This document shows, one piece after another, positions 13,513-22,615 of a stretch of 42,170 nucleotides of DNA. The notes under the pieces are model-generated. The model did not search any database. It saw only the letters and a list, made by a program, of their open reading frames with translations, and was not told the origin of the DNA. Location of the stretch: contig REGJ01000007.1 of assembly GCA_003702525.1 (NCBI GenBank), positions 1-42,170 on the forward strand, written 5' to 3'. Position 1 is the stretch's first letter. The number at the start of each line of letters is the position of its first letter. This DNA is from Candidatus Nitrosopumilus sp. (GTDB lineage: Archaea > Thermoproteota > Nitrososphaeria > Nitrososphaerales > Nitrosopumilaceae). The position numbers were made by a program, and so were the translations under genes.

Positions 13513-14955
13513 TTATTTGGGTTTTGGTCCTTTTTCCTTTGATTCTAGTTTAGATAACTTCTCTTTTTCTTTCTGAGCTTTCTCAGCATCTCTTTGTTTT
13601 TGGTCAGCTTGTTGTTTTGCTAGCTTTTCAGCTTCTTGAGCTGCTTTCTTGGCATCTCTTTGTTTTTGGTCAGCTTGTTGTTTTGCTAGCTTTTCAGCTT
13701 CTTGAGCTGCTTTCTTGGCATCTCTTTGTTTTTGGTCAGCTTGTTGTTTTGCTAGCTTTTCAGCTTCTTGAGCTGCTTTCTTGGCATCTCTTTGTTTTTG
13801 GTCAGCTTGTTGTTTTGCTAGCTTTTCAGTCTTTAATTGAGACGTAGAACTGTCAGTACATTGACCTAGATAATCATCATCATGGTGCTCCAAGTGATTT
13901 CTTGCAGCTTTTCCTGGAAGAGAAAGAGTAGTTTTTCCGTTATGACATATGTCAACTCTCTCATTTGAGAATGTGATTTGTGGTGTAACAGGTGCGGTTA
14001 TAGCTGAAAATGAATTGGAATAAGTAATCTCTGAACATGTACCTCTAGTGTCTCCATGATTAAGATGTGCAGGTAATGCATTTGCAGAAATTGTTATAGT
14101 GTTTTTTCCTTTATGACAGAGAGTTACCTTTTCGTTATTTCCTGATATTTCAGTTCTATGAAATGCTTCAAGTGCAGAAATTCTTTCTTTAAGTAAGGCA
14201 TTTTCTTCTTTGAGTTGAATTACTTCATCCTCTAAGGCTAGAACTTTATCAAAGATTAGTTGGATTTGATCAAAAATTTCCTCAAATAGAGAGTCATTTG
14301 GTTCTTCATCAATCGCAATTACAGAGATTGTTACATTTGCAGAATTACTGGTATCCTTTCCATCAGATGTCCAATAAGAAAATGTTGTATTTCCAACAAA
14401 TCCAGCTAGAGGAGTAAACAAAACTTGAGATTCTTGGATTTCAACAAATCCTCTTGTTTCTGATGAATTATTTTCCAAAAAGATATTCAATGAATCATTA
14501 TCTACATCAAAATCATTTTCAAGAACATCTATACTGATAGGAACATTTTGTTGAGTTTCAACATAATCATTTTGGGCAACAGGTGCATCATTAATTGGAT
14601 TAACAAAAATTATAACAGTAGCTTCATTGCTGTTGTCAGTTCCGTTATTTGCTACATAAATAAATGAATCAGTTTGAATAGAATTTTCATCTGGAAGATA
14701 AGTAAAATTACCATTCTGATGGAATGACAGGGTTCCGAAATTAACATCAGATAGAAGGATTGCATTTAATGGCTCGCTTGTGGTGTTGGTATCATTTTGT
14801 AATACTCCAATAGGCTCAACAGTTAGAAGAGAATCCTCATCAATAGAGTAAAAGTCATCTACTGCAATTGGTGCTTCTTGAGCAAATGCAAAACTAGAGA
14901 AAAGAGTTCCAGAGATCAGTACAGTCAGCAAGAATATTCCTGAAAGTTTTTGCAT
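13513..14955 (-). CDS. Secreted multidomain protein with cadherin-like modules and C-terminal repeats
   Basis: A 480-residue exported protein. Signal peptide 1-25 (ends AFA-QE). Residues 30-215 hold two Ig/cadherin-like modules of the tandem type found in adhesins (AVDDFYSIDEDS and AQNDYVETQQN openings, VLxND motifs). A short coiled coil follows (225-265). Two copies of a Cys/His motif come next: VTLCHKGKNTITI...HLNHGDTRGTC (about 278-308) and VDICHNGKTTLSL...HLEHHDDDYLGQC (about 335-365); this CHxGxx...AHLxHGD pattern recurs in secreted proteins of unknown role. The tail (375-480) is four 22-residue Ala/Lys/Gln/Asp repeats encoded by near-perfect 66-bp DNA repeats. Probably cell-surface or matrix-associated. 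Confidence 0.8.
   Translation of the reverse strand: MQKLSGIFLLTVLISGTLFSSFAFAQEAPIAVDDFYSIDEDSLLTVEPIGVLQNDTNTTSEPLNAILLSDVNFGTLSFHQNGNFTYLPDENSIQTDSFIYVANNGTDNSNEATVIIFVNPINDAPVAQNDYVETQQNVPISIDVLENDFDVDNDSLNIFLENNSSETRGFVEIQESQVLFTPLAGFVGNTTFSYWTSDGKDTSNSANVTISVIAIDEEPNDSLFEEIFDQIQLIFDKVLALEDEVIQLKEENALLKERISALEAFHRTEISGNNEKVTLCHKGKNTITISANALPAHLNHGDTRGTCSEITYSNSFSAITAPVTPQITFSNERVDICHNGKTTLSLPGKAARNHLEHHDDDYLGQCTDSSTSQLKTEKLAKQQADQKQRDAKKAAQEAEKLAKQQADQKQRDAKKAAQEAEKLAKQQADQKQRDAKKAAQEAEKLAKQQADQKQRDAEKAQKEKEKLSKLESKEKGPKPK
13586..13829. repeat. Tandem 66-bp repeat, 3.7 copies, within a coding region
   Basis: Copies run 13586-13651, 13652-13717, 13718-13783 and a partial copy 13784-13829. 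They look identical base for base, although synonymous change would be free, so they arose or were homogenised recently. Each encodes a 22-residue charged helical unit (AEKLAKQQADQKQRDAKKAA plus QE) of the secreted protein. A less similar copy continues toward the C-terminus below 13586. Confidence 0.93.
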
Positions 14956-15061: not shown

Positions 15062-15709
15062 CTAATAAAATTTTGAAGTTGATTCTGTTGATGATGTTGT
15101 TTGTGTTGGAACTGATGGGAACATCTGTCCTGCAGAACTCTCAGCTACTGCTGCTGCTTCTTTGAGAATTGCTTCAGATTCAGAGTTTGTGGTTTCATCG
15201 GTTCCAAATGCTGCATCGCCTGAGAAACTTTCAGTCATAAATCCACCTAGCATTTCAGCCATTTGGCCAATTTCGGCTTCAGCTCCAGGCATTACTTTTC
15301 CCAATGATGATTTGAGATTCTTCATCAATCCCATTGTTGGCATGATTGCCACAACAGTATCTCCAAGATCACTAAATGTTGTTAATCGTAATTCTATTTG
15401 TTCTAGAGCAATTCTTGCGCTGCTCATGATTTTGATAACTTTTCTAATTTCTGCTAATTCATTTCCTAAAACTTTGGCTGATTGTGTATCGTGTTTTTGG
15501 GTTGCTTCTACAATTCTTGCAAATAGTTGTCCATCACGCTCCTGCAAACCAGACAACATTTTATCCAATTTTTGAATCTGTAATCGTAATCTTTTGACTC
15601 CTTCTTGAACTCGTGGTTTTAGTGCACCTTTAGGCTTGACGGCATCACCAATCTTTTCGCCAATACCAGGAGTAGGGGGTTTAGTCCACTTGTTACTCAA
15701 ATTAGCCAT
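15062..15709 (-). CDS. ESCRT-III-like CdvB paralogue (Snf7 family)
   Basis: A 215-residue protein with the Snf7/ESCRT-III pattern: a basic N-terminal helix (about 30-60, KPRVQEGVKRLRLQIQKLDK) followed by long alpha-helices 2-5 (62-160), then a flexible Ser/Thr-rich tail. CdvB proteins form membrane-remodelling filaments in archaeal cell division and vesicle budding, depolymerised by the CdvC AAA ATPase. The tail is short and has no clear winged-helix domain, which in the main CdvB binds CdvA; this makes it a paralogue rather than the primary CdvB. GQMFPSVP near the C-terminus is a possible short CdvC-binding (MIM-like) motif. CdvA and CdvC genes are not in the window. Confidence 0.85.
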   Translation of the reverse strand: MANLSNKWTKPPTPGIGEKIGDAVKPKGALKPRVQEGVKRLRLQIQKLDKMLSGLQERDGQLFARIVEATQKHDTQSAKVLGNELAEIRKVIKIMSSARIALEQIELRLTTFSDLGDTVVAIMPTMGLMKNLKSSLGKVMPGAEAEIGQMAEMLGGFMTESFSGDAAFGTDETTNSESEAILKEAAAVAESSAGQMFPSVPTQTTSSTESTSKFY

Positions 15710-16423: not shown

Positions 16424-16852
16424 GTGAATAAGAAAATCATCATAATTCCCATTGTGGCAATTATAGGAATTTTTGCAGTAATGTCTTTGGATTCTTCTGA
16501 GAAAGATGACGGTGTTGTCTTTCATGTGACATTAGCAGATCCACAATTATATGAAAATGGAATTTACTCTGATTCATTTTTAATTTCTGAAGGAGAATAT
16601 CATTTCAGATTTGTCCCAAATGGCAGCAGTCCAGAAACCTTATCAATTTCATTAAATGGAGTAGAGCTAGATTTTTCTGAAGATTTTAAGCTAGAAAATA
16701 CTCTACATCAAACAGGGATTTCTGAATATTACACATGGGAATATCTAGGACAAAAAGAGATTACAGTTTCAGAAAATCAACAAGTAATCATCATCATCAA
16801 TCCAAATGGAAATGTAATGGGTTCGGTATCTGTCGATATTTTACAAAATTAA
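16424..16852 (+). CDS. Membrane-anchored extracellular protein, function unknown
   Basis: A 142-residue protein with one N-terminal hydrophobic helix (4-22, preceded by KK) that is a signal anchor or signal peptide, followed by a beta-rich domain with alternating polar and hydrophobic residues. No cysteines. Start is GTG 16424, supported by a TATA-like TTTATAATGG about 26 nt upstream. A C-terminal part with VSENQQVIIIINPNG resembles jelly-roll or emp24-like beta sandwiches but no family can be claimed. The 3' end meets the termination region of a putative ncRNA on the other strand. Confidence 0.65.
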   Translation: MNKKIIIIPIVAIIGIFAVMSLDSSEKDDGVVFHVTLADPQLYENGIYSDSFLISEGEYHFRFVPNGSSPETLSISLNGVELDFSEDFKLENTLHQTGISEYYTWEYLGQKEITVSENQQVIIIINPNGNVMGSVSVDILQN

Positions 16853-16985
16853 AAGAGGCGTAATCCCCTTCGTTGCAGAACTTTGAGAGATTCCCTCTCG
16901 TTTTCAAACGACCTAAGCGCTTGATTGCCTTTATCGTTCTGCGGGGTTACGCGGTTTTAGTCGATAGGAATTATATCCTTCGGCA
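16846..16985 (-). ncRNA. Putative structured non-coding RNA, about 135 nt
   Basis: A GC-rich island in an AT-rich intergenic gap with all signs of a gene on the minus strand: a strong TATA element CTTAAATAG (17008-17016), an expected start near 16985, a folded body, and a U-rich end (TCTTTTAATTTT, 16846-16856). In the body, 16858-16867 pair with 16943-16952 (10 bp) and 16875-16881 with 16936-16942 (7 bp), separated by a one-sided bulge. Inside are small hairpins (GAGAG/CTCTC at 16885-16899 and CGTT/AACG at 16899-16910). It is not a tRNA or 5S rRNA and shows no RNase P or SRP hallmarks. The family is unknown. Confidence 0.6.
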
Positions 16986-17007
16986 TTAATTATTATAGGA
17001 ACTTTAA

Positions 17008-17016
17008 CTATTTAAG
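17008..17016 (-). promoter_or_regulatory. TATA element of the putative ncRNA
   Basis: Reads CTTAAATAG on the minus strand, close to the archaeal TATA consensus. No protein-coding start lies at the right distance, so it most likely drives the structured RNA beginning near 16985. Confidence 0.55.
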
Positions 17017-17088
17017 AGTTCATCTAATAAATTACAAATAATCATATCAATTAATGAAATATTTTATTCCTATTTCTTAAAAATTGAT

Positions 17089-21592: not shown

Positions 21593-22498
21593 CTATAGTT
21601 CTAATGACTCTTTGAGTCCTTTGTACCTATTTCTGATAGTGACTTCAGTCACATTTGCAGCCTCGGCAATGTCTCTCTGAGTCTTATCCTCACCATTTTT
21701 GACACATGATAGGTACAATGCGGCAGCTGCTAGACCCATTGGATCTTTTCCTGCTGAAACCTCGTTTTCTTGTGCTTTTTTGAGAACTTTGACTGCGTAT
21801 CTTTTTGTTTTTTCTGCAATTCCAATTCTACTTGCAATTCTTGCAACACATTGAATTGAATCAGTAACTGGCATCTTCAAGTCTAGTTCTTTGACTAGTA
21901 ATCTGTAACATCTTGCAATATCTTTCCTTTTGATATTTGCTGCCTGCTCTACATCTTTGAGATTTCGTGGTGTTTCTGTATCACGGCATGCAGCATAAAG
22001 TGCTGATGCCATTAATGCTGAAATGGAACGACCTCGAACTAATCCCTTATCAAGTGCTTTTCTGTAAATGTAAGCTGCTTTTTCAATTACTGCATCTGAA
22101 ATTGCCAGTTTGTCTTTTAGTCTGTTTAATTCACTAAATGCTTGTCTAAAGTTTCTATCAACTGGTTCATGAACCTGGCTTCTACTATCCCAAGTTCTTA
22201 ATCTCTCAATAGTACTTTTCATTGAAGCTGTAAGTGGTCTTCCAGAAGCATCCTTGTTTACTGGATTGATAATTGTTGCAAGACCCATGTCATGCATTGT
22301 CAATGATGTAGGAGCTCCTGCTCTTGCTCTGTCTCCATGTTCATCTTGTGTAAAGGAACGCCATTCAGGACCTGCTTCTTGTAATTTTTCAGTGATTACA
22401 AAACCACATTTGGAGCAAAACATTTCTCCAGATTCATTATCAGTTACTAATTTTCCCTGTGCACATCTTGGACAGAGTTCTTTTGTTTTACTTACCAT
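21593..22498 (-). CDS. tfb: Transcription initiation factor B (TFB), canonical form
   Basis: A 301-residue archaeal TFIIB homologue. The N-terminal zinc ribbon has C9, C12, C28 and C31; the B-reader region contains PEWRSFT and the B-linker/finger continues to about residue 85. Two cyclin-like repeats follow (about 105-195 and 200-295), the second ending in the DNA-binding VTEVTIRNRYKG segment that contacts the BRE. It recruits RNA polymerase to TBP-TATA complexes. The promoter TATA-like CATAAATACC lies about 32 nt before ATG 22498. A second, more divergent TFB is encoded at 26145. Confidence 0.95.
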   Translation of the reverse strand: MVSKTKELCPRCAQGKLVTDNESGEMFCSKCGFVITEKLQEAGPEWRSFTQDEHGDRARAGAPTSLTMHDMGLATIINPVNKDASGRPLTASMKSTIERLRTWDSRSQVHEPVDRNFRQAFSELNRLKDKLAISDAVIEKAAYIYRKALDKGLVRGRSISALMASALYAACRDTETPRNLKDVEQAANIKRKDIARCYRLLVKELDLKMPVTDSIQCVARIASRIGIAEKTKRYAVKVLKKAQENEVSAGKDPMGLAAAALYLSCVKNGEDKTQRDIAEAANVTEVTIRNRYKGLKESLEL

Positions 22499-22615
22499 AA
22501 TTGATTCTGGAATCCTAGGATTGGTGGTATTTATGAATCAACAAGTCATTTTTAGAAATTTTTGAGCCTATAATTGCCCAGAATAGTCATAATGCAGTTA
22601 TGATAATAAAGAATC

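Follow-up and report, generated by a model that had tools for sequence, protein, structure and literature searches.

Structure of the RNA gene

The window (the whole stretch of DNA analyzed, 42,170 nucleotides long) carries on its minus strand a small RNA gene, which consists of a leaderless minigene, a structured body and a U-rich 3' end. The TATA box, the two helices of 10 and 7 bp and the U-rich end picked out by the first-pass annotation were all found in place. The span then given for the gene (16846-17016) holds the RNA together with the TATA box, and the RNA proper runs from 16986 to 16847. The island is GC-rich in an AT-rich background, as had been noted (GC content of 0.44 in the RNA vs about 0.34 in the surroundings). 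Read 5' to 3' on the minus strand, the features are:

17027..17064 (-): AT-rich dyad TTWYAWNA-N12-TNWTRWAA upstream of the TATA box, spanning -78 to -41 relative to the ATG
17009..17015 (-): TATA box TTAAATA, 22 nt before the ATG
16847..16986 (-): the RNA (minigene, structured body, U-rich 3' end), matched in the window by covariance model R2 with 129.3 bits, E 6e-30
16957..16986 (-): leaderless mini-ORF ATGCCGAAGGATATAATTCCTATCGACTAA (MPKDIIPID, stop TAA), its start, length and stop conserved across 159 distinct homologues
16943..16952 (-): 5' strand of helix P1, GCGUAACCCC, starting 4 nt past the stop codon
16936..16942 (-): 5' strand of helix P2, GCAGAAC; 97% paired, double changes at 6/7 pairs
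16925..16935 (-): junction segment GAUAAAGGCAA, single-stranded according to the alignment (GAAAAAGGCA in most Nitrosopumilus copies)
16904..16924 (-): hairpin P3, UCAAGCG / CGUUUGA; 88% paired, double changes at 5/5 modeled pairs
16885..16899 (-): hairpin P4, GAGAG-GGAAU-CUCUC; 96% paired, 2 pairs with double changes
16875..16881 (-): 3' strand of P2, GUUCUGC, from the predicted fold and the alignment
16858..16868 (-): 3' strand of P1, GGGGAUUACGC, after a 6-nt bulge, from the predicted fold and the alignment
16847..16857 (-): U-rich 3' end CUCUUUUAAUU, by direct reading an archaeal-type terminator

The 5' strands of P1 (10 bp) and P2 (7 bp) are contiguous, with the 6-nt bulge located between the 3' strands, and P2 meets the hairpins P3 and P4 in a three-way junction. 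The junction segment is partly common to a divergent paralogue described below. The mini-ORF segment is also able to form a weak 5' hairpin (78% paired in 29 diverse sequences). In the alignment, the U-rich 3' end is present in nearly all Nitrosopumilus homologues; in the window it reaches into the stop-codon end of the convergent ORF 16424-16852.

The minimum free energy of the minus-strand fold is -43.8 kcal/mol (z -3.67), and none of 200 shuffled sequences was as stable. An equally good fold is obtained for the plus strand (z -3.46), so folding alone cannot assign the strand. The assignment comes from the pattern of substitutions: across P1-P4 there are 34 G-U pairs vs 5 A-C mismatches, an excess that only a minus-strand RNA is expected to show.

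Among the 29 diverse sequences, 92.3% of the cells are paired, vs 37-51% when the 3' partners are slid, although the alignment was fitted to the model and the pairing figures lean towards it. Double changes are observed at 21 pairs, with 100 double-change cells vs 27.8±5.1 in shuffles (0/500 reaching the observed number); P1 is 97% paired in the same set, with double changes at 5 pairs. An independent MAFFT alignment gives double changes in 8 of the 15 predicted pairs. Conservation of the stems in relatives, on which the first-pass annotation had beforehand made its claim of a complete, independent minus-strand RNA gene depend, was thus found: the stems are kept and they covary. We regard the presence of a conserved structured RNA gene at this locus as practically certain.

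Distribution and genomic context

Of 41 genomes, 21 contained the element by BLAST, all of one genus and mostly with two copies each. Covariance model R1, based on 28 copies, extended the reach to other genera of Nitrosopumilaceae, and a second model (R2) was built from 29 diverse copies. With R2, a check of the kind that the first-pass annotation had proposed, matches were obtained in 112 of the 116 sampled Nitrosopumilaceae genomes (1-4 copies each, usually 2-3), bearing in mind that this model includes the AUG and favors the recovery of AUG-bearing copies. The four genomes without the family belong to three genera. None of 84 genomes from other families of the same class gave an R2 match, nor did about 100 genomes outside Nitrosopumilaceae in a sample of the phylum; these large scans used stricter filters, and relaxing them for 20 genomes of other families brought no match either. 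In the named sequence collection, almost all homologues come from Nitrosopumilus and Nitrosarchaeum, which, together with the GC content of about 0.34, marks the contig of the window as that of a Nitrosopumilus-like archaeon. Three copies (L048, L111, L115) come from contigs that binning had assigned to Nitrososphaeraceae, Hyphomicrobiales and Chitinophagaceae; L048 and L115 are likely mis-binned, since their neighbors are Nitrosopumilaceae-type.

The genome of the window has three copies: that of the window, C43:17524-17660(-) and the divergent C51:25518-25645(+). In another genome (G117), copies were located at 22398-22537(+), 690171-690307(+) and 488160-488287(+). The divergent paralogue type (L160, L165, L174, L207-L212) keeps the minigene, P1 and the CGCC-U end, with P2 missing, and has a conserved GAGAAUGCUUUU hairpin of its own.

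The copies are found in several gene neighborhoods (gene names were read from the sequences; only the SDR gene of the window was named by a family search). The window-type copies are located between an SDR gene and a gene for a small membrane or secreted protein, which is convergent, with TFB beyond in several genera. A second type adjoins a myo-inositol-1-phosphate-synthase-like gene, another adjoins TYW1 and a CorA-like gene, and aroC and aroA flank the divergent type. A mobile repeat is ruled out by the occurrence of copies at conserved gene neighborhoods across genera. The search for virus-borne copies returned none with two patterns, and the 13 loci given by a third included only two matches (17.7 and 19.6 bits), both without the ORF. 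At 127 of 157 loci, that of the window among them, the ORF closest on the 3' side runs on the opposite strand, and for this reason the RNA is, as judged from its genomic setting, a stand-alone gene and not a leader. Elsewhere in the window, the minus strand encodes a 215-residue protein (15062-15709) with a sub-threshold Snf7 match (E 7e-5), possibly a CdvB/ESCRT-III paralogue, and a 480-residue protein (13513-14955) with cadherin-like/Big_9 repeats, probably a surface protein.

The marine, ammonia-oxidizing Nitrosopumilaceae are among the most abundant archaea of the ocean, and their regulatory RNAs are little known. The family is new and absent from Rfam 15, in which the RNA and its relatives gave only chance matches at both gathering and permissive thresholds, yet it is nearly universal in the sampled Nitrosopumilaceae. 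Our literature search, mostly of open-access papers, found no earlier report of a matching RNA, and no regulatory RNA like the minigene family for Nitrosopumilaceae. One genome paper speaks, without specifying it, of a conserved noncoding RNA in N. limnia (PMC3043068), and an earlier annotation of the family is possible on that account.

The leaderless minigene

The first-pass annotation had seen no protein-coding alternative at the locus. This part did not stand: a leaderless 9-codon ORF (16986-16957) occupies the 5' end of the RNA and is kept in all 159 distinct homologues. Its length is 9 codons in 149 of them, 8 in 9 and 10 in 1; the start codon is ATG in 151, TTG in 5 and GTG in 3. The stop codon is TAA in 88, TAG in 48 and TGA in 23, and on a quick tree of the RNA body it switches type at least 33 times without ever becoming a sense codon. 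The gap between the stop codon and P1 is 3-4 nt in 148 of the 159. All of the 25 divergent copies, which are counted within the 159 and were fetched after the pattern had been seen, keep an ORF of 8-10 codons. A small clade (L021, L043, L044, L072, L100) has lost the ATG and would start one codon later, at TTG, with 8 codons.

The peptide shows the opposite behavior. The 87 distinct 9-codon ORFs with ATG encode 77 different peptides, and single-step neighbors differ by 26 nonsynonymous vs 1 synonymous change, where random single changes would give about three to one. The depletion of synonymous changes could instead reflect a constraint of the 5' hairpin on the wobble positions. As far as sequence comparison goes, the peptide is not conserved, and what selection keeps is the start, the length, the stop and the distance to the helix. 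The peptide itself is probably disposable; the mini-ORF, on the other hand, is very probably translated.

The promoter agrees with a leaderless transcript. In 125 of 139 homologues, TTAAATA or TTATATA precedes the start codon by exactly 22 nt, and TATA-like hexamers before the long protein ORFs of the same genomes peak at 20-25 nt. As the spacing falls inside this peak, the ATG is most likely the 5' end of the transcript. The upstream dyad is palindromic about -59.5 (column information from 123 homologous promoters) and is perhaps the site of an unnamed activator. In G006 (1.36 Mb of a complete relative genome), the full promoter model places the two family copies at ranks two and three; high scores for the dyad by itself are also found before the EF-1A and FBP aldolase/phosphatase genes. 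The dyad hints at strong expression, a weak indication in so AT-rich a genome. Among the TATA-plus-ATG mini-ORFs of G006, the two family copies are followed by the most stable folds (-38.4 and -36.3 kcal/mol vs -29.2 kcal/mol for the next mini-ORF).

Proposed mechanism and alternatives

The combination of fixed start, length and stop with a free peptide suggests that the passage of the ribosome matters more than its product. In the mechanism that we propose, the TATA promoter and the dyad would drive transcription from the A of the AUG, give or take a nucleotide or two, and the transcript would present, in this order, the minigene of about nine codons, 3-4 nt, the coaxial P1/P2, the P3/P4 three-way junction and the U-rich terminator. 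A ribosome would load on the 5' AUG, read nine largely arbitrary codons and halt with its leading edge inside P1. Given general ribosome geometry, the terminating ribosome would cover about half of the P1 5' strand, so that an intact P1 and a terminating ribosome would be mutually exclusive. The minigene would be a device fixing one ribosome at a set point, which gates the fold or shields the 5' end, and the structured body would then act in trans on a putative target.

We tentatively prefer this reading, that is, a stand-alone trans-acting RNA whose minigene sets the terminating ribosome against P1 and in this way gates or protects the RNA, and we would give it slightly less than an even chance. 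If the gating is true, the family offers a directly testable case in which the ribosome serves for positioning on an RNA that is otherwise non-coding. A stronger version is conceivable but rather doubtful: a new kind of archaeal RNA, in which obligatory translation of a minigene of fixed length and free sequence would switch the trans activity, with the ribosome as the ligand and the RNA reporting the availability of ribosomes or initiator tRNA.

The invariant start and stop imply engagement of a ribosome, and this would also be expected of an RNA directed at the ribosome itself, such as a decoy or hibernation factor, in which the leaderless AUG and the body sequester ribosomes or subunits in trans. 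High expression, hinted at by the dyad shared with the EF-1A and FBP aldolase/phosphatase genes, would suit such a role. We consider it unlikely, as the RNA complements the 16S 3' tail no better than shuffles do (median rank 0.35) and no rRNA match beats shuffles.

Somewhat less likely still is a dual-function sRNA, with a functional peptide of nine residues and a base-pairing regulator in the 3' part. Archaea offer a precedent in M. mazei sRNA154, with its leaderless sORF of 20 amino acids (PMC11456600), and some subgroups do have a peptide in common, e.g. MPKDIIPID in many species. However, peptides such as MSLVIKSGD, MQKDVKSTA, MAEKSAHMT and MLVEPQKMA share little, and the 77 peptides from 87 ORFs, with their 26 nonsynonymous to 1 synonymous single steps, argue against selection on the product.

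A plain, untranslated structured sRNA, in which promoter and hairpin sequence would give rise to the AUG and the stop by coincidence, is improbable: the 5' segment can fold as a hairpin in many copies, but its pairing (78%) is kept less well than the ORF (159/159), the stop changes among its three types without a sense codon, and the ORF lengths vary by whole codons. A cis element, either an attenuator or leader of a downstream gene or an antisense regulator of the convergent gene, is highly improbable, since the overlap of the RNA 3' end with the end of ORF 16424-16852 and the same-strand CorA-like gene downstream in some genera stand against paralogues adjoining unrelated genes and a nearest 3' ORF that is mostly on the opposite strand (127/157).

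Comparison with known RNAs

Several known classes were compared with the RNA of the window. The suggestion of H/ACA guide features in the first-pass annotation found no support: the 3' end is CGCC followed by the U-rich stretch, with no ACA box, the internal loop is one-sided (0:6) and leaves no two-sided guide pocket, and there is no Rfam match. By direct reading, the termini of the window copy and of the consensus have no C (RUGAUGA) or D (CUGA) boxes of a C/D box sRNA. A guide for rRNA was rejected, with no rRNA match better than shuffles. Anti-Shine-Dalgarno pairing, either by GAGG of P4 or by the AGGUGAUC that some copies have in the junction, was rejected too, being likewise no better than shuffles. 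A leader or attenuator would need a co-transcribed downstream gene, which the mostly opposite strand of the nearest 3' ORF (127/157 loci, the window included) argues against. The RNA Tan1 comes from marine group II euryarchaea, which are another lineage. The archaeal SRP RNA and RNase P RNA are likewise stand-alone structured ncRNA genes; neither model matches at the locus, and each RNA is encoded by a separate gene elsewhere in the same genome. In one other genome (G117), RF00373 gives no RNase P RNA match, whereas close relatives match strongly.

The tmRNA is also a structured RNA with a short ORF, of about ten codons. The present RNA differs from it in that the ORF is AUG-started and placed at the 5' end, and in that there is no tRNA-like domain (ARAGORN found none in the window, neither of tRNA nor of tmRNA type). 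In the mg2 minigene of axe-txe, the effect comes from translation and not from the product, possibly through protection of the RNA (PMC8708949). That bacterial minigene has two codons and affects, in cis, the gene downstream of it, whereas the Nitrosopumilaceae RNA is stand-alone, with no downstream cistron.

The closest known system is sRNA154, a regulatory RNA of M. mazei, whose leaderless sORF of 20 amino acids is highly conserved in Methanosarcina (PMC11456600). Both are archaeal small RNAs that begin with a leaderless sORF, here seen in 159 of 159 distinct homologues together with the TATA spacing. A functional, conserved peptide is not what the substitutions indicate here (26 nonsynonymous vs 1 synonymous): the sORF has 8-10 codons and no peptide conservation, with a fixed length and a fixed gap between stop and helix. 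Unlike sRNA154, the family thus separates conserved translation, visible in the start, length, stop and helix distance, from conservation of the peptide.
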